Shown here in pieces: positions 301 through 53,011 of a stretch of DNA of 64,000 nt (within the stretch, counting starts at the first letter, position 1; each line of letters opens with the position of its first letter). Below the pieces are notes generated by a model, which did no database searches, was not told the origin of the DNA, and saw nothing but the letters and a program-made list of their open reading frames with translations. This DNA comes from Salinisphaera sp. Q1T1-3. Its GTDB lineage: Bacteria > Pseudomonadota > Gammaproteobacteria > Nevskiales > Salinisphaeraceae. The stretch is taken from the NCBI RefSeq assembly GCF_003602005.1, contig NZ_QZWD01000012.1, positions 1 to 64,000 of the forward strand, in the 5' to 3' direction. A program made the position numbers and the translations under genes.

Positions 301-3300
301 CTAAATCTGCCCACCTACCCCTTTGAACTTCTCAACAAAAGCCGAAATCTTATCTAATACGGTCTGCTTCTTGGTCTTGTACTGCGGGTTGAGCGGGCTC
401 ATTTTCGGCAGGGTGGCATTGAGCGCCGTACCGTTCTCAGTGGCATATTCACGCTTCAGCGACACCTTGATGTAGCGGCGAGCCTCAGCCTCGTTCAGCC
501 CCTCGGACTGGATCAGCGTGTGTGCTTCTCGCTTCTGCTCAGCTTGGGCGAAGTTAAAGAAGGCATCAATGATGCTGGCTTTATCGCTAATGTCGTCAAG
601 ATCAGTCTGATGAATGAAATCCACGATCAGGCTTTCTTTTGCCCGGTTGCCAATACTGGCCCGAATTAGCCGTCGGACTTCGTCGATCAGATCTTCTTTG
701 TTCTTGGTCTTTTTGTTGTGCTCAAAGATCAGTTCAAGGATATAGTCCAGGTTGATCTCCTGGGACTTCAACAGGTCTACCTCAAAGACCACATCATCCC
801 AATCCAGGGTGGATTCGTCTTTCTGCTCTCCGTCCTTCTGCCGTCGTAGCCAGTCCCGTGTGTCGTTGTAGGTTGATCGATAATCCTGAATAAGGCGCTC
901 GGACGGCACCTTGATCTTCTGCATCGACTCCAAGTCGATGTCGCTGAGGTAATGCTTGGCCTTGAACGCCTCAACTGCGTCTGCGTCGTTCACGTCTAGC
1001 GTTTGCAGGGCTTGCAGGCTGGTGAATTCGTCATAATTGCGCAGTACGTTTTCTACCCGGAGGTACTCGCCAAACAGCTTTACGAAGTCTTTCTTATCTT
1101 GCTCTTTGACGATATCGGCCGGGTTCGGGAATCGGCTTTGCAGCTCCTCGACCACGTCCACGTAGCCACGGCTGGTTTTGCCTGTGGCAATGTCGGTAAA
1201 CCCCTCCATGTATTCCCGGTAGCTCTTCTCCAGGACTACATTCTTGGTATTGGCGTTGCCAAACAGGGTGATCGCATCAATCGTGTTCTGTTCCAGGTCA
1301 CGAAAGGTCACGATATTGCCGAAGGTCTTGGTGGCGTCAAAGATGCGGTTGGTACGGGAAAACGCCTGCAACAGCCCGTGGTAACGCAGGTTCTTGTCGA
1401 CGAACAGCGTATTGAGACGCGGCGCATCAAAGCCCGTCAGAAACATTCCCACTACAATGACCAGGTCGATTTGTTCTCCTGGTTCGAGCCTGCGCCCGAC
1501 GCTGTCTTCGCCCTTAACCCGGAGGGCTAGATCTCGGTAATAGTTCTGGAAGCCTTTGCTGTCGACCCCAAAGTTGGTCTTGAACGCGGCGTTGTAGTCG
1601 CCAATGGCCTTACTCAGAAACTCCTTGGCGCTGCTGTTCATGGCAGTCACCTCAAAGCTTTCGTCGGCAATGTCGCCGATCGCGTCTTGCGCTTCGTTTG
1701 CGGCGAATGAAAAGATCGTCGCGATCTTCAGACGCTTGTTGTCCTCTACGCCCGCCTGCGCCTCGCCGAATGCCTCGTAATACGCCTTGGCAGCATCCAC
1801 GCTGCTCACGGCAAAGATCGCGTTGAAGCCGCCGTTTACTTCCCCGCTACCCATGTGGGCGCGGTGCGTCTTCAGGCGAAAGTTCTCGAGGATGTAACCG
1901 GTGATCTCGCGAATACGCTCCGGGTGCAGCAGCGCCAACTTGTTCTCGGCGGCAGAGAGCTTCTGCTCATCCTGCTCGGTTTCAATCGCCTTAAACTGCG
2001 GCCGCACATCGTTGTAGTCCACCTTGAACTTCAACACTTTCTCATCGCGGATGGCGTCGGTGATCACATACGAATGCAACTCGCGCCCAAACACGCTGCT
2101 CGTGGTCTCCGCGCCCAAGGCGTTCTGCGGAAAGATCGGCGTACCGGTAAAGCCAAACTGGTAATAGCGCTTGAACTTACGTTGCAGGTTCTTCTGCGCC
2201 TCACCGAACTGGCTCCGGTGGCACTCATCAAAAATGAATACCACTTGCTGCCTGTACACCGGCAGCTCGTCATCACCGCGCATCAGGTTGTTCAGCTTCT
2301 GAATGGTGGTGACGATGATTTTGTTGTCGTCCTTGTCCAAGTTGCGCTTTAGCCCGGCGGTGCTGTCCGAGCCGTTCACGCTGTCGGGCGAAAAGCGCTG
2401 GTACTCCTTCATCGTTTGGTAATCGAGGTCCTTTCGATCCACGACGAAAAACACCTTGTCGACAAATTCCAGCTCGGTTGCCAGCCGCGCCGCCTTAAAG
2501 CTCGTCAGCGTTTTGCCGGAGCCGGTGGTGTGCCAGATGAAGCCGCCGCCCTCAGTCGAGCTCCACTGCTTGGCCTGATACGCGCTCTTGATCTTCCACA
2601 GAATGCGCTCAGTGGCGGCAATCTGGTACGGCCGCATCACCAGCAGCGTATTGCCCACGTCGAACACGGAATACTTCAAAAGCACTTCCAGTAGCGTGTG
2701 CTTCTGGAAGAACGTCGCGGTGAAGTCCTCCAGATCCTTGATAAGCGCGTTGTCCGACTTCGCCCAGTGCATGGTGAAGTCGAAGCTGTTCTTATCGCGC
2801 TTGGTTGTATTGGCAAAGTAGCGGGTGTCTGTACCGTTGGAGATCACGAAAAGCTGCAGGTACTTGTACAGCGAGTTGTCAGAGTTGAAGCTCTCCTTGC
2901 TATAGCGATGCACCTGGTTGAAGGCTTCGCGGATGGCCACGCCGCGCTTCTTGAGCTCCACCTGCACCAGCGGCAGGCCGTTGACCAGAACGGTCACGTC
3001 GTAGCGGTTCGCAAAGCTGCCGGTTTGCTCGAACTGTTTGATCACCTGCAGCCGGTTATTCAACGCATTGCGTTTGTCCAACAGGTAGATGTTTTCGATG
3101 TGCCCATCGTCGAACACAAAATCATGGATGTAGTCCTCATGAATTTTGCGGGCTTTGTCCGTGCTCTTTTCGCTAGCCGGGTCCAGGTATTGGTCAACGA
3201 AGCGCTGCCATTCGTCATCGTTGAACTGCACATCGTTCAGCCGCTGCAGCTGTCCACGCACATTGGCCAGCATCGCCTGCATCGAACGAATGTCACGGGC

Positions 3301-3450
3301 GTAGGTGTAGCCTTGATTCTCCAGATCACGGATGAACTCATGTTCGAGAGCATCCTCGCTCTGATACTGCTCCCTTACCTCGTGACCGCGCTGGAAGCGG
3401 TCGAGGACAATGAACTGACTGGTCTCGGCTATGGTTTTTTGTTCGCTCAT
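301..3450 (-). CDS. hsdR: Type I restriction enzyme motor/nuclease subunit HsdR (type IC-like)
   Basis: Restriction subunit that translocates and cuts DNA in complex with HsdM and HsdS. The 1049-residue length is that of type IC HsdR. The nuclease core shows D151 (YDVTVLVNG) and E165-x-K167 (VELKKRG), the same residue numbers as the catalytic D151/E165/K167 of EcoR124I. The SF2 helicase motor follows: Walker A TTGSGKT at 308-314, DECH at 408-411 and TGTP at 435-438. The start ATG overlaps the prrC stop by 4 bases (ATGA), so it is last in the hsdM-hsdS-prrC-hsdR operon. GC is visibly lower than in the core genes from guaA onwards, which suggests transfer. The reading frame is intact. Confidence 0.97.
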
Positions 3451-4607
3451 GCCCCGTGCTCCGCGTTTGCAGCGGGCGTGCCGGGCGCCGATTTGAAGCG
3501 GTAGGTCTCATTGATCTTGCTTACCAAAAACGCCAGCATGCGTTTGTCGTCGTCCCTAAGCTCCGTCACCTCTGCCGCTGAATGCTTTGAGTGGCTGAAC
3601 AGATTGATCATTCTGGATTCGTAGGGGTTTGTTCTCCCGTCCGAGGTCGTGGGCAGCAAATCTGCCCATTTCTCGTAGCCCAAAAAGGTGGACGTCTTTT
3701 CGAGAAGGTTTCTCAAAAAGTTGAAGTGGTACTTGCGAACTTGACCGGTTGCAATGGCCGTTTCGAGTTCCCGCTTTAGGTACAAGTGGTAGGAGAATGG
3801 CGAATCACTCGTTTGATTCTTCAAGGTGTGACTACCGTCTTCCGCCTTTTGAAGCAGATACTTACTTGCATTCCCGAATTCGTTGTGCAACACGTTGTAG
3901 AACAGCGGGTTGTGCGTGGTGATGATGAACTTTAGGGCACTCTCACTGCGCTTGATAATGCCGGCAATATCCACCGCTAGCTCTATCAGGTGATTGTCAT
4001 CCAGCGAGCTGACCGGGTCATCAATAAACACATACTGCAAGGCGTTAAACTGATCAGTGTCGCGCTCACCCTCTTCGGCAACATTGAGCGTTTCCACCAC
4101 CAAGTCCAACATCGTGTGGAACACGCTCCAAATAAACGTGCTTTCCTCACCTTTTGAGAGCTTGACGTTGGGTTGTCGCGCCTCGTTCCCGCGCTCAAAC
4201 GAAAAGCTAACCTCGGAGAAGTCCGGATTGAAAACTGCGTTGAGCTTGTCGCTGCTGTAATGCTGAAAATGCTCTATCGCGTTCTGATCCTGCCCTTGCT
4301 CGACCAGCGCCCACTTCGTGAAAGCATTAGGCTGGATCATCAACTTGGGCGCTAAGTCTTCGGCCAGGTCGTTGTCCCAATAGAAGAGATCCTCAGTGAA
4401 CGCGTTGTAGTACAAAATCTTCAGAGGCGACGAAACGGCTTCCACCTCTTCGTCGTCTTCAAGTTCGCTACCAAGCTTGGGTGCGACTAGCGTCTTGAAC
4501 TCACGAGAAAGACGCGTCTTACCACTGCCGTTGAAGGCATAGATCAGCTGTACTTTCTTGTCACTCGCCCGGAGTTGCTTGGCTATGTCTCGCAGGCTCT
4601 GGCTCAT
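3447..4607 (-). CDS. prrC: PrrC-type anticodon nuclease, ABC-ATPase regulated
   Basis: Predicted tRNA anticodon nuclease kept silent by the flanking restriction complex; E. coli PrrC cuts tRNA-Lys when a phage disables the restriction enzyme. I use the ATG 1 base after the hsdS stop (386 residues), because [12 protein letters not shown] matches the known N-terminus; an ATG at 4625 would add 6 residues. Counting from 4625: Walker A FNGSGKT 31-37, conserved [16 protein letters not shown] 72-87, ABC signature LSKGE 156-160, Walker B/D-loop [11 protein letters not shown] 200-210, H-loop H238. The nuclease part keeps R305-x3-E309 (LRNLLEK) and H345 (FSHS), matching the R320/E324/H356 triad of PrrC. 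It lies between hsdS and hsdR exactly as in the prr locus. The comparison rests on remembered sequence, not an alignment. Confidence 0.93.
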
Positions 4608-4608
4608 C

Positions 4609-5868
4609 TCAGGCCACCGCCTCATCGGGGAAATCGGGCTTCGGGAAGCTCAGCAACAGGTCGCGGTAGTACTCGTATTGTTTTTGGCGCAGTTCGATTT
4701 CACGCGGCAGCCCTTCGCTGATGGAATGTGTGAGGATGTGGAACTTATCAAGAATGGCGACGATGCGCGCTTGTTCGGCGAAGGATTCTTCGGGGTCTTC
4801 CGGGAATGGTATTGGGATGCGGAATCCTTTGATGATCCCGGAGTTTAGGTCGCCTCGGGCGCCTTGCCCCATATCCCTCAATTTTTCATAATTTTTACTG
4901 ACCCAGTGAAACACGTAACGATAAAGTGCTTTCTCAGAGTCAATTTCTAAACAGCAACAGTGCTGATTGGTTGTAAGAGGGATTTTATTGATCCCCGACC
5001 GGCCTGCGGTTGCGCCAGAAATTGCAACAATAACGCAATTTTCAGGAATCCATTTAGCGGCGGTCTCTTCTACGGCCGCCTGAGTGATTTTTACCGCAGT
5101 TTCGTGAATTTCGGCAAAGGTAACTTCTTGGGTACGCAGCCAAGGTATCTCACCACCATCATAGTATTTTGCGTTACCAGCCTTCGGTGTTGCGCCAGAA
5201 TAGGAATTCAAGCAGACATCACCCAACGTCTTCCACTCCACATCGCCCTCCTCAAAGGTGAGGAGCTGATCGCGGTAGTAGGCGTATTGTTTTTTGCGGG
5301 CGGTCAGCTCTGTGGTTAGCTCGGCGGTCAGCTCGGTGAAACGATCCAGTATGCGGCCGATCTGTGTCTGAATCGACAGCGATTTTTCGGGGTTGTCTGG
5401 GCAGGGAATTGGTACGGGTATTATCTGCAGTTTTGCCTTCGTGAGCTTGGCACGGTCGCCCCCGGATAAGAAGGGCAAAAAATTTACTGTGGACAAAATG
5501 TGGTATAGGAATCTGGTGCTGACTTCATCCTTTCCACCCACTACGTGCACGTGATTGTTTGCCCAAAACCTCCCTTCCGCGTACTGGATCGAATAATTCT
5601 CCAAGCTTGCGGAGCCATCTTCCGCAATAAGAACGAACTCGCCGTCATGAGTATAGCCTTCAACGTAATCTTGCACGTTGTTGGCGCCGTAATACGGGGT
5701 TTCACCTGGAACGCGCAGAGATGCATTCACAGGTCGTCGGCCTCGATTGGCGATTTCAAAAAACTGATCGTTCCCTAACGGCACCCATTCCACGTCTGCG
5801 CCATCAAGCAGCCGCTCCAAGAAAGCCGGCACTCGTGCGGTGGCTGCAGCGTCTTGCAACTCGCTCAT
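4609..5868 (-). CDS. hsdS: Type I restriction-modification specificity subunit HsdS
   Basis: DNA-recognition subunit, 419 residues, with two target recognition domains. The first is followed by a central conserved segment with [12 protein letters not shown] repeats and [15 protein letters not shown]; the second ends in the related [15 protein letters not shown]. The TAEL-type repeats are the hallmark of type IC (EcoR124) HsdS, where copy number sets the spacer length of the bipartite target. Its start overlaps the hsdM stop by 4 bases, and prrC begins 1 base after its stop. The second recognition domain (about 4830-5220) is distinctly AT-richer than the flanking conserved parts, consistent with domain exchange. 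The recognition sequence cannot be predicted. Confidence 0.96.
5299..5334 (-). repeat. Three 12-bp TAEL-type repeats inside hsdS
   Basis: Three consecutive 12-base units on the minus strand encode ELTA, ELTT and ELTA. Units 1 and 3 are identical (GAGCTGACCGCC); the middle one differs at 4 bases. In EcoR124I and EcoR124II, gain or loss of one such unit changes the recognition spacer by one base. The diverged middle unit would reduce slippage compared with perfect repeats. Confidence 0.85.
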
Positions 5869-7412
5869 CCCTCAATCTCCGTCACAATCGCATCAATATC
5901 GTGTCGTAGCCCGTCGATCTTGCGCACGGTGGCAGCAATCTCCCGATTCAACTCGGCAATATTGATGATCTCGCGGGTGTCTTTGGCTTCCACGTAAGAG
6001 CTGACGGACAGGTTGTAGTCCTTCTGCGCAATCATCTCCATGCGCACGGATTGGGCGACGTGGGCGACGTCTTCCTTGCGGTCAAACAGCTCGAGAACCT
6101 TATCGACATGACAGTCGGTCATCAGGTTGGTGTTGGTGCCTTTTCTGAAAAACTCTTCGCCCGAGGCATCAATGAATTGCACGCTCGTATCGTGCTTGTG
6201 TTTGGAGAGCACCAAGATGTTCACGGCGATGGTGGTGCCGTAGAACAGGTTGGGCGCTAGTGAGATGACCGTTTCGACAAAGTTGTTGTCCACCAGGTAT
6301 TGCCGAATAGTCTTCTCTGCGCCGCCGCGGTAGAAAATACCGGGAAAGCAAACGATGGCGGCTCGTCCCTTGGCCGACAGGTAGTTGAGGCAATGCAGCA
6401 CAAACCCGAAATCCGCTTTGGACTTGGGCGGCAAGACGCTGGCTGGGGCAAAGCGATCGTCGTTGATCAGCGTGGGGTCATCGCTGCCGATCCATTTCAC
6501 GGAATACGGCGGATTGGAGACGATGGCATCGAAGGGTTTATCGCTCCGAAAATGCGGATCGGTGAGGGTATTGCCCAGCTGGATGTTGAACTTGTCGTAG
6601 TTCACGGTGTGCAGGAACATGTTCATCCGCGCCAAGTTGTAGGTGGTGTGGTTTATCTCCTGCCCAAAGAAGCCGTCCTCGATGAGGTGGTCAGCCATGT
6701 ATTTTTTTGCCCGCAGCAGCAGCGCACCGGAGCCGGCTGCGGGGTCATAGATCTTATTGATGCTGGCCTGCCCGTGAATGGCCAGCTGGGCGATAAGCTT
6801 GGATACATGCTGCGGCGTGAAAAACTCGCCGCCGGATTTGCCGGCATTAGCCGCATAATTGCCGATTAGGTATTCGTAGGCATCGCCGAAGACATCGATC
6901 TCGCTGTCTTCAAAGCGCCCGAACTCCAGCGCATTGACGCCTTTGAGCACAGCGGCCAGGCGGGCGTTCTTGTCTTTGACGGTTTTGCCCAGGCGGTTGC
7001 TGGTGGTGTCGAAGTCATCAAACAGGCCTTTGATGTCTTCTTCTGAGTCGTAGCCCAGCGCGGAGCCTTCGATAGCGGTGAAGATGGCCTTGAGGTCGGT
7101 GTTAAGGTTCTCGTTGGTGTTGGCCCCGGCTACCAAGTTTTCGAACAGCTGGCTGGGGTAGATGAAATACCCCTTGGTTTTGACGGCGTCGTCCTTGATG
7201 TCATCGGTGATGAAGTCGTCGCTAAGCTTGGCGTAGTCCACGCTGTCATCCCCGCCCTCGATGTAGCGGGAGAAGTTTTCGCTGATAAAACGGTAGAACA
7301 GCGCCCCGAGCACGTACTGCTTGAAATCCCAGCCGTCCACCGTACCGCGCACCTCGTTGGCGATCTGCCAGATACGACGCTTGAGTTCATCGAATTGTTC
7401 GGTGCTGGTCAT
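5865..7412 (-). CDS. hsdM: Type I restriction-modification DNA methyltransferase subunit HsdM
   Basis: N6-adenine methyltransferase that protects the host recognition sites and forms the M2S1 core of the enzyme. It has 515 residues, typical for HsdM. The N-terminal HsdM bundle (about 1-150) is followed by the SAM-binding motif [11 protein letters not shown] at 222-232 and the catalytic NPPY at 300-303. [16 protein letters not shown] before the methylase core is also typical. First gene of the operon. A TATAAT-like hexamer lies 15 bases upstream of the ATG, but no clear Shine-Dalgarno is visible, so the leader may be very short. Confidence 0.97.
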
Positions 7413-19752: not shown

Positions 19753-20799
19753 TTAGTCGTTGCTGCTGTCGCCGGCGGCACCCGACGGTGCGGCCACGCT
19801 GAGTGTGGCCACGCTCGAGCCGTTGGTCTGGGAGGCCACGTCGACCGGCTGGCCGCCGATGGTGACCTTCACGCCGGGCGCAAAGCCGAGTCGCACTTCA
19901 TACGGCGGTTCGCCGTTGAAGGTCTGGGTCTGCCCGGATTCGAAGATGCCGGAGGCCAGCCGATTGCCGTTGGCATCGGTGACCCGAACCCAGGATCGCT
20001 TGTTGAAATTCAGCACCAGACGATTCGGTGGCACGGACGGCGTCGTCTGCTGGGTATTGCCGCCGTTCTCGTCCGGGCCTGACGAATTGTCGCCGCCCGG
20101 CGGCTGGATGCCGAGCGTCTGGTTGACGTTGCGCCCGCCGGTGGTCTGACCGGTCCGCGGCTGATTGTTGCCACTGCCCACCACATCGGGCGTGTTACCG
20201 CCGGCGATGCCGTCGTCGGCGCCGCTCTCGGCCGGCGTGTTCTCAGCGGCGCTGGATTGCTGGCCCGTGGTGTCTGGCTGGGTGTCCGCTTCGGTCTGGA
20301 CGGTCGTTTCCTCGTTACTGTCGCTCGCTCCCGAGGTCACCGGATTGGAAGGGACGAAATACAACGCGACGAGAATCGCCACGACCACGATGGCCAGTAA
20401 CAGGAAAAGCCGGCCAAAGCGCGATCCGCTGGGGGTCACGTCCTGCGGGATGACGTTGACATGGCTCGGCGAGGCCGTGTGCGCCCCGGCTGTCGGCCCG
20501 GCCCAGGCCGAATACGCCCGCATCATGCGATCCAGGTCGATATCCAGAACCTTGGCACACTGGCGATAGTAGCCGCGCGCGAACACGGGCTGCGACAACG
20601 CCTGAAAATCGTTGTCCTCCAGGGCCGCGACGGTCTTGGGCGACAGTTTGGTCTGCGCACACAGATCATCGATCGAATATTCGTGCGCCAGACGGGCTTC
20701 GCGCAGAATCTCGCCCGGCGAGACACCATCGGCCTTGTTATGTGACAGGCCGGTCGTCGCGGGATCTTCTTCGATGTGGTCGTCGTGCGGTGCAGTCAT
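19753..20799 (-). CDS. rodZ: RodZ-like cytoskeletal/cell-shape membrane protein
   Basis: Bitopic membrane protein that couples MreB filaments to wall synthesis. I choose the ATG whose bases overlap the pilW stop by 4 ([14 protein letters not shown]), giving 348 residues. A Cro/C1-type helix-turn-helix spans about 26-95 (GEILREARLAHEYSIDDLC), with one membrane helix at 131-149. A Ser/Thr/Gly/Asn-rich periplasmic linker precedes a C-terminal DUF4115 beta domain (about 245-330). The HTH is used for MreB binding in this family, not DNA binding. Confidence 0.92.
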   Translation of the reverse strand: MTAPHDDHIEEDPATTGLSHNKADGVSPGEILREARLAHEYSIDDLCAQTKLSPKTVAALEDNDFQALSQPVFARGYYRQCAKVLDIDLDRMMRAYSAWAGPTAGAHTASPSHVNVIPQDVTPSGSRFGRLFLLLAIVVVAILVALYFVPSNPVTSGASDSNEETTVQTEADTQPDTTGQQSSAAENTPAESGADDGIAGGNTPDVVGSGNNQPRTGQTTGGRNVNQTLGIQPPGGDNSSGPDENGGNTQQTTPSVPPNRLVLNFNKRSWVRVTDANGNRLASGIFESGQTQTFNGEPPYEVRLGFAPGVKVTIGGQPVDVASQTNGSSVATLSVAAPSGAAGDSSND

Positions 20800-21551
20800 T
20801 GCCGCGATGGCTCCCGTTGGCCCGGCGATGAGCTCGCCGCGGGCTGGTTCGCGTTGTGGTAGCGCTTCAGATAGGACTCGGCGGCTGCGCGATCGTTCAT
20901 CGCGGATTCGATATCCGCCGCCAGACGCAGCTGCTCGGCATCCAGTGTCGTGGCTGAATCGGCACGCTCGATATACGCCCGTGCCTTCATGTAATCCTGC
21001 GCATGGTATGCGATATCGGCCAGCTGCGTCAGGGCCGTCGGCTGACGCGCATCGATCGCCAGTGCCTGTTCGAAATAGTCGGCAGCCCTGGCGGTCTGGT
21101 CGGCCCGCGCCAGACACAGCCCGGCGTTGGCCAGCGTATCCGCGCGATCGGTCACATTCGGCGCCGACAGCGCTTTCTGGAAGTTGGCCAGACCGGCCTG
21201 CGTGTCACCGTGCTTGCACAAAAACGCAGCAAAGCTGTTGTAGACCGCCGGGGACTGGCGCGCTGCCAGGGCCTTTTCGAAATAGCGCCGCGCATCGGCC
21301 GGGGCGTTACGTCGATCACTGACGACAGCCATTCCCCAGTTCGCGGTGAAATCATCGCTTTCGTAGTGCAGCGCCCGCTGGAAGGCCTGGGCTGCCCGTT
21401 CGTTATCGTTCTTGCGCAGATATTCGGCGCCGACGTTGGCATTGGCGGCCGCTGCCTGTGGCTTGTCGACCCCGGCATCGGTGGCACAGCCGGTGAGCGA
21501 CAGCGCCCAGAGCGCTGCCACGGCGATGCCGCCCGCACCGATTGCCTTCAT
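20796..21551 (-). CDS. pilW: Type IV pilus biogenesis lipoprotein PilW/PilF
   Basis: Outer-membrane pilotin that assists assembly of the PilQ secretin. The signal peptide ends in LTGC with Cys22. Six or so TPR units follow ([60 protein letters not shown]). 251 residues. It overlaps rlmN upstream and rodZ downstream by 4 bases each, the typical setting. It implies that the organism has type IV pili encoded elsewhere. Confidence 0.93.
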
Positions 21552-47042: not shown

Positions 47043-48047
47043 ATGTCGGGCGCTTCCCGACGACCTGTACGGCATGACGGTGAAACTCGCTTGCCGCGCC
47101 TGACCACCGTCGTCGCTTCGCTGGCGATCGGCGTTCTACTCTATTTTTCGCTCGTCGCCGGTATCGACGGGCAGCGAACGCTCGCGGCCATACAGCGCAT
47201 GGATCCTGCCGGCTGGCTCGGCATATTCGGTCTGTCGCTCGCCAACTACGGTCTTCGATTCGTCCGCTGGCACGGTTACATGCGCTGGCTGGGGCATCGG
47301 GTGCCGCTCGTGCGGCATCTGTTGGTCTATCTGGCAGGTTTCGCGCTGACCACCACGCCGGGCAAGGCCGGCGAAGGCGTGCGAGCGGTCTATCTGGCGC
47401 GTCGTCGCATTCCTTATGCGCACAGCGTGGCCGCGATGTTCGCCGAGCGCCTGCTGGATCTACTGGCGATCATCGCCCTGTCCTGTCTGGCGATCCTGTC
47501 GTTCAGCGGCTACGCCGTCTGGGTGATCGCCCCACTGGCCGTGATCGCGGGCCTGCTCGCGGCGATGCACAACCGTCGGCTGCTAAAATATGTCCAACGC
47601 CGGGTCGAAGGCGCCGATGGCATGATCGCCGGCGTGGCGCATGTCTTCGTCCACGCCTGGGAGCGGGCGTTCGTGCTGTTGTCGTGGCGACCGTTGATCG
47701 GGGGCTTTTTGATCGGTTGCCTGGCCTGGGCAGCCGAGGGTGTGGCGCTGTATCTGATCGCCGACCGGCTGGATATCTCGCTCGGCGTGACCATGGCGGT
47801 GGGTATCTATGCCACGAGCATGCTGATCGGGGCGCTGTCGTTCGTGCCGGGCGGGCTCGGCAGTACGGAAGCCGCCATGACCATTCTGCTGAAACTGACC
47901 GGCATCGCAAGTACCGCCGCGTTGACCGTCGTACTCATCGCCCGCCTGGCGACACTCTGGTTCGCGGTACTGCTCGGTTTGTGCTGTCTCGTGGCACTGG
48001 AAATCGAACACCGCTGGCTGCCTGCCCACGGGAGACCTTCCACATGA
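47043..48047 (+). CDS. Flippase-like membrane protein (LPG synthase TM region family)
   Basis: 334-residue integral membrane protein with about eight helices, in the family that contains the membrane part of MprF and the UPF0104 proteins. Hallmarks are NYGLRFVRWHGYMRWLG near the start, AGFALTTTPGKAGEGVRAVYL and LSFVPGGLGSTEAAM. Members act in lipid or polyprenyl-linked sugar translocation. The stop overlaps the HAD-UbiA start by 4 bases, so it belongs to that operon. A role as translocator of the polyprenyl-arabinose donor is inference. Confidence 0.85.
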   Translation: MSGASRRPVRHDGETRLPRLTTVVASLAIGVLLYFSLVAGIDGQRTLAAIQRMDPAGWLGIFGLSLANYGLRFVRWHGYMRWLGHRVPLVRHLLVYLAGFALTTTPGKAGEGVRAVYLARRRIPYAHSVAAMFAERLLDLLAIIALSCLAILSFSGYAVWVIAPLAVIAGLLAAMHNRRLLKYVQRRVEGADGMIAGVAHVFVHAWERAFVLLSWRPLIGGFLIGCLAWAAEGVALYLIADRLDISLGVTMAVGIYATSMLIGALSFVPGGLGSTEAAMTILLKLTGIASTAALTVVLIARLATLWFAVLLGLCCLVALEIEHRWLPAHGRPST

Positions 48048-49477
48048 CGCAAGCTAGTGCTTCCGACGCTGCGCTGGTCGTCGATCTCGACGGCACGCTG
48101 GTTCACACGGATCTGCTGATCGAATCAGCATTCGTGTTGGCACGCGAGCGCCCTCGGAGCCTGCTCAAGATGCCGGCGTGGCTGTGTGCCGGCAAGGCCA
48201 CGCTCAAACACGAGATCGCCAGCCGCGCGGCGCTCGATGTCGGCCGCCTGCCCTACAATCGCGCATTCATCGCGTATCTGGAGACCGAACACGCCGCCGG
48301 CCGGCGTATCGTGCTGGCCACGGCCGCCGATCGACGATATGCCGAGGCCGTGGCTGCGCATCTGTCGCTGTTCGAGGCCGTCCTGGCCAGCGACGAGACA
48401 ACGAATCTGTCGGGCGAGCGCAAGCTGGCCGCGATACGAGCCTATCTCGGCGACGACACCCCCTTCGAGTACGCCGCCGATCACAGCGACGATCGCGTGA
48501 TCTGGGCATCGGCACAGGGCACGCTGCTGGTTGGCGCCGACAACGGGACACGCGACTGGGCCGAACGCAACGTTCACGTGACCGAGAGCTTCGATCGTCC
48601 CCATCGTGGCATTGCGACATGGCTGCGTGCCATGCGGCTGTATCAGTGGGCAAAGAACATCCTGATCTTCGTCCCGCTGATGGCCACGCACTCGCTCGTG
48701 GGCATCGACACGCTGGCGGCGGCCTGCATGGCGTTTCTGGCCTATGGTCTGCTGGCCTCGAGCGTTTATCTGCTCAACGATCTCGTCGATCTGTCCGATG
48801 ATCGCCAGCATCCCAACAAGCGATTCCGTCCCCTGGCCAGCGGTGCCCTGCCGTTGTTGCACGGCATCATCGCCATTCCGGTGCTCATGGCCACCGCCGC
48901 GCTCATTGCCCTGTTCCTGCCGCCGCTGTTCGGGGCGGTACTGGGCATGTATTACGTGCTCACACTCGCCTATTCGATGGTGCTCAAGCGTGTGGCGTTG
49001 ATCGACGTGGTCACGCTGGCCGCGCTCTATACGCTGCGGCTGATCGCCGGCGGCGTGGCGACCGGCATCCATCTGTCGTTCTGGCTGCTTGCGCTGTCGA
49101 TGTCGATGTTCCTGAGCCTGGCCATGGCCAAGCGTTGCACCGAGCTGTTGCTGGTGCGCTCCGGCCATACGGCCTCCCTCGGCCGCGGTTATCGTGAAGC
49201 GGATATCGAAACACTCAAGACCCTGGGCACAGCGGCCGGCTATGCCGCTGTGGTGATTCTTGCCCTCTACATCAACAGCCCGGACATCACGGAGCAGTAC
49301 GATCATCCCGCGCGGGTCTGGCTGCTGTGCCCGGTCGTGCTGTACTGGATCAGCCGGATCTGGCTCATGACGATGCGCGGACGCATGACCGATGACCCGA
49401 TCGTCTTCGCTGCCCGGGATCGCGCCAGCCAGATCTGTATTCTGCTCGGCGGACTGATCATGATCGCCGCCCTATGA
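48044..49477 (+). CDS. HAD-UbiA fusion: polyprenyl-phosphate phosphoribosyltransferase-like
   Basis: 477 residues in two parts. Residues about 8-185 form a HAD phosphatase-like domain (VVDLDGTLVHTD with D14/D16; ATAADRRYAEAV; GADNGTRDWA). Residues about 195-477 are a UbiA prenyltransferase with N245-D246-x2-D249 in the motif NDLVDLSDDRQHPNKRFRP, typical of the decaprenylphosphoryl 5-phosphoribose synthase branch (Rv3806c). The pathway needs a step removing the 5-phosphate, and the fused HAD domain could supply it; that is inference. It overlaps both neighbours by 4 bases. Confidence 0.88.
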   Translation: MTQASASDAALVVDLDGTLVHTDLLIESAFVLARERPRSLLKMPAWLCAGKATLKHEIASRAALDVGRLPYNRAFIAYLETEHAAGRRIVLATAADRRYAEAVAAHLSLFEAVLASDETTNLSGERKLAAIRAYLGDDTPFEYAADHSDDRVIWASAQGTLLVGADNGTRDWAERNVHVTESFDRPHRGIATWLRAMRLYQWAKNILIFVPLMATHSLVGIDTLAAACMAFLAYGLLASSVYLLNDLVDLSDDRQHPNKRFRPLASGALPLLHGIIAIPVLMATAALIALFLPPLFGAVLGMYYVLTLAYSMVLKRVALIDVVTLAALYTLRLIAGGVATGIHLSFWLLALSMSMFLSLAMAKRCTELLLVRSGHTASLGRGYREADIETLKTLGTAAGYAAVVILALYINSPDITEQYDHPARVWLLCPVVLYWISRIWLMTMRGRMTDDPIVFAARDRASQICILLGGLIMIAAL

Positions 49478-50802
49478 CCGACGCTGCCTATTCCAGCTGG
49501 GGTCGCCTGCCGGGCCACGAGGGACCGGCCCGTGTCTTGCGGCCCGCACAGCGGGCCGATGCACGGCCGGAGGCCCGCGATGTCTCGTGGCTGGCCTACG
49601 GTTGTGGTCGCAGCTACGGCGATGTGCCACGTAACGACGGCGGCGGCCTGATCGATACCGCTGCCCTCGACCGGTTCATCGCCTTCGACGCCGGAACCGG
49701 CGTCATCGAATGCGAACCCGGCGTGCAACTCGGCGATATTCTGCGTCTTGGGGTGCCGGCCGGCTGGTTCCTGCCGGTCACACCCGGCACGCAGTTCGTT
49801 ACCATCGCCGGCGCGCTGGCCAATGATGTGCATGGCAAGAATCATCACGTGGCCGGCACGTTCGGGGCGCATGTCGCCGCGTTCGATCTCTGGCGAAGCG
49901 ATGTCGGCGAGATTCACTGCCGCGCCGACAATGCACATCGCGACCTGTTCGCTGCCACCATCGGCGGACTCGGCCTGACCGGCCTGATCACGCGCGTGCA
50001 ACTGCGGCTCAAGCGCATCCCCGGGCCGTTCATGGACGTCGAGACGATTCGTTTCGAGACACTGGCGGATTTCTTCGCGCTCTCGGCAAACTCGGCCGAC
50101 AGCCATGAGTACACTGTCGCCTGGGTAGACTGCAGCGCCCGCGGCAATCGGCTCGGCCGCGGCTGGTTCATGCGGGCCAACCATCTGTCCGGACTGGCCC
50201 AGCCGCGACAACGCCCGCGCGGGCCCGGGCCGAGCGTGTTCGCCACGCCGCCATTTTCCTTGGTGAACCGCGCCACGCTCGGGCCCTTGAACAGTCTGTA
50301 TTTCCATCGACGCGCTCGACGACGCGATCGTGCGGCCTCGCATTACCAGCCTTATTTCTATCCGCTGGATGCCGTTCGTCACTGGAACCGGGTCTACGGG
50401 CCGCGCGGTTTCTATCAGTACCAGTGCGTGGTCCCGCCCGGCGACGCGCCGGCCGTCATTGCCGAACTGCTCGAGCGCATCGCCGCGGCCGGCCAGGGGT
50501 CATTCCTGTCGGTCCTCAAGATCTTCGGCGACATCCCGTCGCCGGGGCTGCTGTCGTTTCCGCGCCCCGGGGCCACGCTGGCCCTGGATTTCCCCAATCG
50601 CGGCGCCGAGACCACGCAGCTGCTCGATGCACTGGACAGCGTCGTGCGTGCTGCCGACGGCGCCGTCTACCCGGCCAAGGACGCCCGCATGGCGCCCGAA
50701 GCCTTTCGCCAGTTCTTCCCGCGCTGGCCTCAATTCGCGGACCAGATCGATCCTGCCTTCTCCTCGACGTTCTGGCGCCGCATCGCCGGAGAGCATGCAT
50801 GA
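49474..50802 (+). CDS. DprE1-like decaprenylphosphoryl-ribose oxidase (FAD)
   Basis: Oxidises the 2'-OH of polyprenylphosphoryl ribose as the first half of epimerisation to arabinose. 442 residues with a vanillyl-alcohol-oxidase type FAD domain: YGCGRSYGDVPRNDGGG, TPGTQFVTIAGALANDVHGKNHH. The substrate side matches M. tuberculosis DprE1: GFYQYQCVVP, FLSVLKIFGD, LDFPNRG, and catalytic lysine K402 in YPAKDAR (Mtb K418). The residue equivalent to Mtb C387, the benzothiazinone target, is A370. It overlaps the UbiA gene and the dprE2-like gene by 4 bases each. Confidence 0.92.
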   Translation: MTDAAYSSWGRLPGHEGPARVLRPAQRADARPEARDVSWLAYGCGRSYGDVPRNDGGGLIDTAALDRFIAFDAGTGVIECEPGVQLGDILRLGVPAGWFLPVTPGTQFVTIAGALANDVHGKNHHVAGTFGAHVAAFDLWRSDVGEIHCRADNAHRDLFAATIGGLGLTGLITRVQLRLKRIPGPFMDVETIRFETLADFFALSANSADSHEYTVAWVDCSARGNRLGRGWFMRANHLSGLAQPRQRPRGPGPSVFATPPFSLVNRATLGPLNSLYFHRRARRRDRAASHYQPYFYPLDAVRHWNRVYGPRGFYQYQCVVPPGDAPAVIAELLERIAAAGQGSFLSVLKIFGDIPSPGLLSFPRPGATLALDFPNRGAETTQLLDALDSVVRAADGAVYPAKDARMAPEAFRQFFPRWPQFADQIDPAFSSTFWRRIAGEHA

Positions 50803-51536
50803 GCAATATCGTCATCATCGGCGCGACCTCGGCCATCGCCGAGCGTGCGGCTCGTCGCTTCGCCGAACGCGGCGATGCCCTGTATCTGGTCGCCCGACGG
50901 GCCGACAAGCTTGCCCCGATCGCCGAAGACCTGAAGGTTCGGGGCGCATCGCAGGCCGGCACCCACACCATGGACGCCGACGACCTGGACGCGCACGGCG
51001 CGATGCTCGATGCCGCGGTCGACGCTCTGGGCGTGATTGACCAGGTTCTGGTGGCCTACGGCACACTGCCCGACCAACAGGCCTGCGAGGCCGATCCGGC
51101 GAGCGCCGTCGCGGCCTGGCATACCAATGCCGTATCGCCGATCGCACTGGTCACCGCGATCGCGAATCGACTCGAGGCCCAGGGCCACGGGCTGATCGCG
51201 GTGATCGGCTCGGTGGCCGGTGATCGCGGGCGGGCCAGCAATTATGTCTACGGCAGCGCCAAGGCCGGACTGGCGGCCTTTCTCGACGGCCTGCGTCATC
51301 GTCTGGCCGATACCGATATCGATATCCTGACGATCAAGCCCGGGCTGGTCGACACACCGATGACCGCCGAGATCGACAAGGGCCCGCTGTTCGCCGACGC
51401 CGAGCGCGTCGGACGCGACATCGTAACCGCCATGGACAAGCGTCGTGCCGAGATCTACACGCCAGGCTTCTGGCGGCTGATCATGGCCATCATCCGGATG
51501 GTGCCGCGCCCGGTGTTCCACCGCACGAAGCTGTGA
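50799..51536 (+). CDS. DprE2-like decaprenylphosphoryl-2-keto-pentose reductase (SDR)
   Basis: NAD(P)H-dependent short-chain dehydrogenase that completes the epimerisation. 245 residues from ATG 50799, which overlaps the oxidase stop. Cofactor loop VIIGATSAIAERAAR at the N-terminus, VAYGTLPDQ, active-site IGSVAGDRGRASN and Y-G-S-A-K in VYGSAKAG, then IKPGLVDTPMTAEI. Similar to Mtb DprE2 (Rv3791) in length and motifs. The next gene starts within its stop codon (GTGA). Confidence 0.92.
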   Translation: MSNIVIIGATSAIAERAARRFAERGDALYLVARRADKLAPIAEDLKVRGASQAGTHTMDADDLDAHGAMLDAAVDALGVIDQVLVAYGTLPDQQACEADPASAVAAWHTNAVSPIALVTAIANRLEAQGHGLIAVIGSVAGDRGRASNYVYGSAKAGLAAFLDGLRHRLADTDIDILTIKPGLVDTPMTAEIDKGPLFADAERVGRDIVTAMDKRRAEIYTPGFWRLIMAIIRMVPRPVFHRTKL

Positions 51537-53011
51537 TCGCTCGCCTGCGCGCCCGATGGCGAGCGGCCGGACGCGCCGGCGATCTGGCCCTGCTCGGCCT
51601 GATCTATCTCGTGTCGCGCGCGCTGGCCTGGCAGGCGGGCGTGGCGTTTCATCTCGACACCCTGAATACCGCCTGGCAGCTGCTGGATCCCGAGGTGCTG
51701 CGCCATGATCTGTTGGCCGGTGTGCTACACATGCCCGGCCAGCCGCCCCTGTACAATCTGGCGATCGGGGCGCTGCTCAAGCTGGGCGACGCGCTGGCCG
51801 TCGGGCCGGTTGGCCTGACCTGGATCTTCCGTGTTTTCTACGGCGCTCTCGCGCTTGTGGCCATCGCCCTGAGCCACGACCTTCTCCATCGCGCCCGAGT
51901 GGAGCAGCGCACCGCGCTGATCGTGATGGCGATCTTCATCTGTTCGCCGGCGTTCGTGCTCTACGAGGCGATGCCCTACTACACTCTGATGGTACTGGCC
52001 TGGCTCGTGCTGATCGCGTGCTGTCTCGACCGTTGTCTGGCCCGGCCCGGCTACGGTCGTGGCCTGCTGCTGTTCCTGGCCATGACGGGGCTGATCTATA
52101 CGCGATCGCTGTTCCAGATCGAATGGTTCATCGTGCTCGCCGTCTTCGTGATCCTGGCCTCACCTGGCGCCAGGCGACGCGTCGGGTTGGCGGCTCTTGT
52201 CCCGCTGGTACTGATCCTTGCGCTGTATGCCAAGAACGTGGTGCTTGTCGGCCAGTTCTCCACGTCCGACTGGCTGGGACTGAGTCTGGCCAAGATGACC
52301 ACGCTCAAGCTCTCGCCGCAGACACGCGAGACGCTCATACGCCAGGGCCGGCTGTCGCCGCTGGCCCGCGATGACCGCGCCTACGGCCTACGCGCGGCCG
52401 ATATCGACGTGCTGGGCGGCCCACCGCAGACCGGCAGCCCGGTGCTGGATACGCTCTATAAATCCACGGGTGCGGTCAATTACAACTATGCGCGTTTTGC
52501 ACAACGCGCCGATATCGCCACGCGGGATGCGCTGGCCACGATTCGAGCCCATCCCGGCATCTTCGCCCGCAGTGTCGGCACAGCCTGGCTGATGTTCTTC
52601 CGACCGGCCAGCGATTATCCGCTGCTTGGCGAAAACCGCACACATCTCGCCCCGTGGAACCGGCTCTACGGCAAGCTGATCGCGGGACAGCCGATCTATC
52701 CGCAGACTGCGACGTTCGCGCTCCGGATCGGCCATGTCGGCTGGTTCATCATGGCCGGTTACCTGCTGGCGGTCGGTTTCGGTGCCCTCGTGGCCATCCG
52801 CTGTCTGCGAGAGCGGCATCTGTCGCAAGGCGATGCCCTGTTGTTGTTCTGCTGGCTCAACGTACTCTACGTGAGCGTGGTCGGCAATGCCTTCGAGATC
52901 GACGAGAACCAGCGATTCCGTTTCGCGATCGAGCCGTTCATCGCCGTGCTGGCACTGCGCGGCCTCCAGGCGATTGCGATGCGTCTTCGGCATCGCCCGT
53001 CGCCATCATGA
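51533..53011 (+). CDS. GT-C type membrane glycosyltransferase, putative arabinosyltransferase
   Basis: 492 residues with about ten membrane helices, starting at GTG that overlaps the DprE2-like stop. The first extracytoplasmic loop has VAFHLDTLNTAWQLLDPEVL and HMPGQPPLYN, the pattern of polyprenyl-phosphate sugar-dependent GT-C enzymes (acidic residue in loop 1, PPLY). The C-terminal region contains FEIDENQRFRFAIEPF. Given its operon, the likely donor is polyprenylphosphoryl arabinose; the acceptor (LPS, pilin, glycan) is unknown. The function is inferred from context. Confidence 0.8.
   Translation: MIARLRARWRAAGRAGDLALLGLIYLVSRALAWQAGVAFHLDTLNTAWQLLDPEVLRHDLLAGVLHMPGQPPLYNLAIGALLKLGDALAVGPVGLTWIFRVFYGALALVAIALSHDLLHRARVEQRTALIVMAIFICSPAFVLYEAMPYYTLMVLAWLVLIACCLDRCLARPGYGRGLLLFLAMTGLIYTRSLFQIEWFIVLAVFVILASPGARRRVGLAALVPLVLILALYAKNVVLVGQFSTSDWLGLSLAKMTTLKLSPQTRETLIRQGRLSPLARDDRAYGLRAADIDVLGGPPQTGSPVLDTLYKSTGAVNYNYARFAQRADIATRDALATIRAHPGIFARSVGTAWLMFFRPASDYPLLGENRTHLAPWNRLYGKLIAGQPIYPQTATFALRIGHVGWFIMAGYLLAVGFGALVAIRCLRERHLSQGDALLLFCWLNVLYVSVVGNAFEIDENQRFRFAIEPFIAVLALRGLQAIAMRLRHRPSPS

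Follow-up and report, generated by a model that had tools for sequence, protein, structure and literature searches.

A five-gene operon at 47043-53011 (+) in the 64,000-nucleotide stretch of Salinisphaera sp. Q1T1-3 analysed here (contig NZ_QZWD01000012.1, positions 1 to 64,000; "the window") very likely encodes a self-contained system that adds a pentofuranose, most likely D-arabinofuranose, outside the cytoplasm. Its first gene encodes a flippase-like protein, and we lean towards the view that the PF03706 (MprF-fold) subfamily to which this protein belongs is a dedicated, hitherto undescribed class of polyprenyl-phosphate-pentofuranose flippases, exchangeable with MATE or GtrA proteins, at times fused to the substrate-making enzyme, and feeding in Salinisphaera a new, genus-specific family of GT-C glycosyltransferases. 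Other bacteria are already known to use this enzyme logic, but for systems of this sort both the kind of flippase and the last transferase are new.

In the proposed pathway, the UbiA domain of gene 2 would join polyprenyl phosphate and phosphoribosyl pyrophosphate (PRPP) to form lipid-linked ribose 5-phosphate, from which the HAD domain of the same protein would remove the 5-phosphate. DprE1 (gene 3) would oxidise the ribose at C2 and DprE2 (gene 4) would reduce the ketone, giving polyprenyl-phosphate-D-arabinofuranose. The MprF-fold protein (gene 1) would flip this donor to the periplasmic leaflet, and the GT-C protein (gene 5) would move the sugar to a periplasmic acceptor, most likely lipopolysaccharide (LPS) O-antigen or core, or another surface polysaccharide. 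The predicted steps of genes 2 to 4 are strongly supported by families and active-site residues, and their relatives are biochemically proven. Flipping by gene 1 is suggested by fold and strong genomic linkage, and transfer by gene 5 is suggested by fold and position. A preliminary description of the stretch had outlined the same sequence of polyprenyl-phosphate-ribose, polyprenyl-phosphate-arabinose, flipping and GT-C transfer, and family, active-site, fold and gene-neighbourhood evidence supports it.

The putative flippase and its genomic linkage

Gene 1 matches PF03706 with an expect value of 1.8e-47 (162.7 bits; gathering score 33.4). Because sequence-profile searches of the PDB gave no match for gene 1 and no real match for gene 5, fold comparison was used for both. 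The AlphaFold2 (AF2) model of gene 1 (predicted local distance difference test score 85, predicted template-modelling score, pTM, 0.81) aligns at Z 18-20 with the flippase domains of the Pseudomonas and Rhizobium MprF proteins, and every other fold scored at or below 5.5.

Several lines of evidence tie this protein to the phosphoribosyltransferase. A gene 1 profile, searched against 369 sampled Gammaproteobacteria at a threshold of E 1e-20, was positive in 25 genomes. UbiA of the phosphoribosyltransferase type occurs in 22 of them, with 5.6 expected (Fisher 5e-13), and in 20 of 23 when the genus itself is left out (Fisher 9e-12), p-values that are indicative because the sampled genomes are not wholly independent. 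Genomes were counted as UbiA-positive by manual reading of the NF006088 table at a best E of ~1e-45 or lower, after three matches to HAD alone had been dropped. The profile was made from linked copies and is biased to that subfamily, and gene positions in other genomes are the independent test: in 13 of the 23 genomes outside the genus, no more than ~4 kb separates gene 1 from UbiA or DprE1, in orders such as gene1-UbiA-DprE1, UbiA-gene1-DprE1-DprE2 and gene1-DprE1. In one genome (G028) flippase, HAD and UbiA form a single open reading frame (ORF) of 821 residues, and another (G059) has the same join, its flippase part interrupted by unread bases. These single-ORF fusions of the MprF-fold flippase with HAD-UbiA stand at L045:7868-10330 and L043:661-2556.

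It is unlikely, in our judgement, that gene 1 moves another lipid in the manner of an MprF-like phospholipid flippase, while an unlinked protein of the GtrA or MATE type flips the donor. Aminoacyl-phosphatidylglycerol is the substrate of the characterised PF03706 flippases, and UbiA or DprE1 is not close to gene 1 in ten of the flippase-positive genomes outside the genus. However, most of these 23 genomes have the UbiA enzyme, the flippase, UbiA and DprE1 genes remain together although their order is shuffled, and in two genomes the flippase is fused to HAD-UbiA. The equivalent operon on a Rhizobium plasmid reads UbiA-GtrA-DprE1-DprE2-hypothetical-hypothetical; GtrA therefore takes the slot that the flippase has here. 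UPF0104 proteins were earlier proposed to be archaeal flippases of lipid-linked saccharides (PMC5898192), and our literature search found no prior link of UPF0104/PF03706 proteins to pentofuranose systems.

Predicted donor synthesis and probable identity of the sugar

Gene 2 scores 617.6 bits against NF006088, across both domains, where the curated cut-off is 351. Its best solved relative is the Rv3806c structure 8j8j (E 1e-30). The HAD nucleophile D14 and the UbiA residues N245, D246, D249 and D253 are invariant in all 38 aligned sequences. The homologous Citrobacter enzyme ORF15 (HAD-UbiA) makes farnesyl-phosphate-ribofuranose (Ribf) from PRPP (PNAS 2024, PMC11127046); its residues N247, D248, D251 and D255 were tested by mutation (PMC11127046), and the active-site residues of gene 2 have the same spacing. 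A HAD-UbiA with 41% identity is encoded in L058 (CAIPNT010000171.1), a metagenome-assembled genome labelled Micrococcales, with pieces of DprE1 and DprE2 nearby.

Gene 3 matches mycobacterial DprE1 structures at E ~2e-68 (next family 4e-10) and NF053785 at E 1e-103. The best PDB match of gene 4 is DprE2 (21gq, which also contains DprE1; E 5e-34, next 9e-16), and it matches NF053786 at E 3e-60. The two genes overlap; the equivalents of the DprE1 catalytic residues H132 and K418 are kept in all 32 aligned proteins, and the YxxxK motif of gene 4 can be read directly as YVYGSAK. The position aligned with Cys387 is Ala in all 32 aligned proteobacterial DprE1 proteins, gene 3 (49474-50802) included. 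Since Cys387 of mycobacterial DprE1 is the covalent target of benzothiazinones, covalent inhibition of the proteobacterial enzymes by these compounds is not expected.

Some results weigh against the pathway as drawn. Gene 3, at 347.9 bits, falls below the NF053785 equivalog cut-off of 500, and gene 4, at 204.1 bits, falls below that of NF053786, which is 250; because both score under the NCBIfam equivalog cut-offs, the mycobacterial substrate may be inexact for this pair. A literature search found no LPS, arabinose or sugar composition data for Salinisphaera, and none of the literature found proves that PF03706 proteins flip lipid-linked pentoses. No O-antigen gene adjoins the operon.

The scores under the cut-offs also bear on the improbable case of a donor whose pentose is not arabinose but ribose or some other epimer, with the DprE1- and DprE2-like proteins acting on a related substrate. 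The Citrobacter systems start from the same entry enzyme to make Ribf or xylofuranose (Xylf), and their glycosyltransferase accepts both donors. Against this, DprE1 and DprE2 are an adjacent pair to which the mycobacterial pair is clearly closest structurally, and the Xylf system has a single short-chain dehydrogenase/reductase (SDR) epimerase in place of the pair. D-arabinofuranose is the sugar we prefer.

The predicted terminal transferase

The preliminary description had called gene 5 a GT-C glycosyltransferase. The predicted fold agrees; among Pfam and NCBIfam models the protein has no match. Its AF2 model (pTM 0.80) was compared with known structures, and the top 50 chains were all GT-C enzymes or GT-C-related subunits, with Z-scores of 18.8 for Pmt2, 18.6 for STT3, 16.6 for ArnT, 15.4 for AftB and 14.2 for EmbB; AftA and AftD also matched. 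The fold call leans on these VIA-align Z-scores because Foldseek alone gave nothing below E 0.001 (best match 1.8e-3). Relatives of gene 5 were not found outside the genus in the 369 Gammaproteobacteria and viral contigs, and no member of the PMT_2 family was found in the strain's own genome. Invariant positions in the genus alignment are D52, after the first transmembrane (TM) helix, M67-P71 (MPGQP) and D457-F464 (DENQRFRF). By the Pfam and NCBIfam models and the gammaproteobacterial sample, gene 5 is a candidate for a new GT-C transferase family.

Distribution and gene order

Gene 2 is present in 11 of 14 genomes of the genus Salinisphaera, and gene 5 in the same 11. Genes 1 to 5 keep their order in all eight same-genus relatives viewed over 18 kb. 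The gene 2 loci in named genomes belong mostly to Salinisphaera, with S. shabanensis, S. halophila and S. orenii among the species; one further genome, L053 (NZ_JAGHQU010000015.1), named Endozoicomonas sp. G2_2, groups with Salinisphaera and is likely misnamed. A recent horizontal gain by the strain is not supported, as the operon is present in most of the genus and its composition resembles that of its flanks (third-codon-position GC 77-82%, similar to flanking genes).

Related families of the order usually have gene1-gene2-gene3-gene4 without gene 5. In one of their genera the donor module follows dxs, an isoprenoid precursor gene. Related genomes of the order have it directly after dxs at L040:5625-8437 and also in L041, L042 and L045; the gene 1 start in L040 coincides with the final base of the dxs ORF. 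More widely, NF006088 is above its cut-off in 45 of the 369 Gammaproteobacteria, often with DprE1/DprE2 (of the 30 best HAD-UbiA loci, about two in three have DprE1 within 1.5 kb), and the HAD-UbiA enzyme has been characterised biochemically in Citrobacter (PMC11127046). A "mycobacterial-type" operon in a gammaproteobacterium, as the preliminary description put it, is thus nothing exceptional. Wider locus views include GT-C-sized membrane proteins without a Pfam match and small EamA- or GtrA-like proteins, suggesting that one constant donor module works with transferases that differ from locus to locus.

The acceptor

With moderate confidence, we favour a surface polysaccharide (LPS or exopolysaccharide type) over pilin as the acceptor. 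This preference is based on the pilA context, the presence of pilins in operon-less genomes, the correlation of Wzy_C proteins with the operon, and a polysaccharide-type gene cluster on another contig of the strain's genome. The best pilin gene of the strain, pilA, is followed by a Wzy_C-family (O-antigen-ligase/TfpO-like) gene (L126:4338-5795), so that the neighbour of pilA is not a GT-C transferase gene of the TfpW kind, and the pilin ends in ...SCTHSG. In the TfpO layout of P. aeruginosa the pilin glycan is an O-antigen unit (PMC11841053). Pilins occur in 14 of 14 genus genomes, whereas the operon was not found in three, two of which are incomplete assemblies. Wzy_C proteins are present in 10 of 10 well-assembled operon carriers and absent from G013 (99% complete, without the operon). 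This correlation fits a polysaccharide acceptor, weakly, because the operon-less genomes may be one clade and one evolutionary event.

It had been proposed that, since the strain encodes the pilus pilotin PilW, pilin or LPS are candidate acceptors. The gene concerned, 20799-21551 (-), encodes a tetratricopeptide repeat (TPR) protein, and a PilW-type TPR protein is uninformative on glycosylation. We give little credence to a TfpW-like outcome, known from P. paraeruginosa, in which the same donor pathway ends on type IV pilin. Transfer of D-arabinofuranose (D-Araf) to pilin by a GT-C enzyme is known (PMC12369383), the strain's genome encodes pilins, and pilin in one relative, G006, is next to a GT-C-like protein that has 8 TM helices and a long soluble tail (L158:2-1186 / L189). 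Yet the GT-C gene of the operon is not beside pilin genes, the Wzy_C-family ligase after pilA recalls the TfpO layout, in which O-antigen units are added, and pilins are found also where the operon was not; pilin as the main acceptor is weakened accordingly. Pilin neighbours vary within the genus, and in G011 a sulfatase-family protein adjoins pilin (L163:1934-3337).

Locus and gene layout

The five ORFs have the order and strand given in the preliminary description, whose flippase-like, HAD-UbiA, DprE1 and DprE2 domains were borne out by Pfam and NCBIfam matches; the set and its order are kept across the genus. Each of the four junctions between successive genes is a 4-base overlap (48044-48047 ATGA, 49474-49477 ATGA, 50799-50802 ATGA and 51533-51536 GTGA). 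For gene 1 the TTG at 47091 is a more likely start than the ATG at 47043, which probably lies 48 bases too far upstream, because most genus orthologues begin at the equivalent of that TTG.

Features of the proposed pentofuranose operon in the window
Gene	Predicted product	Coordinates	Strand	Basis
1	Flippase-like protein, PF03706/TIGR00374, MprF flippase-domain fold	47091..48047 (ORF from 47043)	+	Pfam and AF2 model
2	N-terminal HAD phosphatase joined to a UbiA-type polyprenyl-phosphate 5-phosphoribosyltransferase	48044..49477	+	NF006088
3	DprE1-type flavin adenine dinucleotide (FAD) oxidase (polyprenylphosphoryl-ribose 2'-oxidase)	49474..50802	+	DprE1 structures
4	DprE2-type SDR ketoreductase	50799..51536	+	Best PDB match DprE2
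5	Orphan GT-C glycosyltransferase, predicted pentofuranosyltransferase	51533..53011	+	Predicted fold

Judged from translations, the upstream neighbour is an acyl-CoA-ligase-type gene on the same strand and the downstream neighbour a large, convergent glutamate-dehydrogenase-like gene; the operon therefore stands alone, away from any visible glycan cluster. Elsewhere in the window, translations at 304-7412 (-) resemble a type I restriction-modification gene set.

Significance

Polyprenyl-phosphate sugar flippases are mostly unproven, and a family that gene fusions and genomic linkage connect to one enzyme of donor synthesis is a clean, testable candidate, with a fold for which structures have been solved. 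The compact operon is a possible heterologous source of the D-Araf donor and a small model of DprE1/DprE2 chemistry beyond mycobacteria, its DprE1 carrying Ala at the benzothiazinone-binding Cys position. The gene 5 GT-C would add a new transferase family for characterisation.

Comparison with known systems

The three-component prototype for pentofuranose addition is the Citrobacter youngae O1/O2 system (ORF15 HAD-UbiA, ORF14 MATE, ORF12 GT136; PMC11127046), whose route ends with a MATE protein and GT136; in systems with Araf-containing glycans, homologues of DprE1/E2 are reported (PMC11127046). The Citrobacter and Salinisphaera systems both comprise a flippase or predicted flippase, a GT-C and a HAD-UbiA whose catalytic residues agree in kind and spacing, and in both the sugar is predicted to be added in the periplasm. 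They differ at the sugar step, which has DprE1/DprE2 in Salinisphaera but no such enzyme in C. youngae O1 and a single epimerase in O2, and in the flippase, which has the MprF fold (PF03706) here and is a MATE protein there. Gene 5 takes the GT-C part by its predicted fold; unlike ORF12, it is not beside an O-antigen cluster and has no relatives detected outside its genus.

The mycobacterial decaprenylphosphoryl-arabinose (DPA) pathway (Rv3806c, Rv3807c, DprE1/DprE2, Rv3789, Emb/Aft) shares the UbiA phosphoribosyltransferase, DprE1/DprE2 and the GT-C fold. The 5-phosphatase is a fused HAD domain in Salinisphaera but Rv3807c in mycobacteria, the flippase is different, no arabinan polymerase set was seen, Ala stands in DprE1 where C387 would be, and the lipid is presumably C55.

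With TfpW, P. paraeruginosa (PA7/Pa5196, PSPA7_6245-6251) produces D-Araf for its pilin (PMC12369383); it is likewise a gammaproteobacterium with D-Araf donor genes and a GT-C transferase. In contrast, Salinisphaera has no TfpW beside pilA, its pilA adjoins the Wzy_C ligase, and its donor and glycosyltransferase genes form one operon. The noeCHOP/noeCNHOP genes of Azorhizobium and Rhizobium IRBG74, which arabinosylate Nod factors (PMC5080398), are also proteobacterial and combine donor synthesis and transferase in one operon; unlike the Salinisphaera system, they have a chitooligosaccharide signal as acceptor and a separate phosphatase candidate, NoeN. Finally, gene 1 has the fold (Z 18-20) and family of the MprF/PF03706 (UPF0104) flippases, but it has no aminoacyl-phosphatidylglycerol synthase domain; gene 1 and its relatives are linked or fused to the phosphoribosyltransferase instead.

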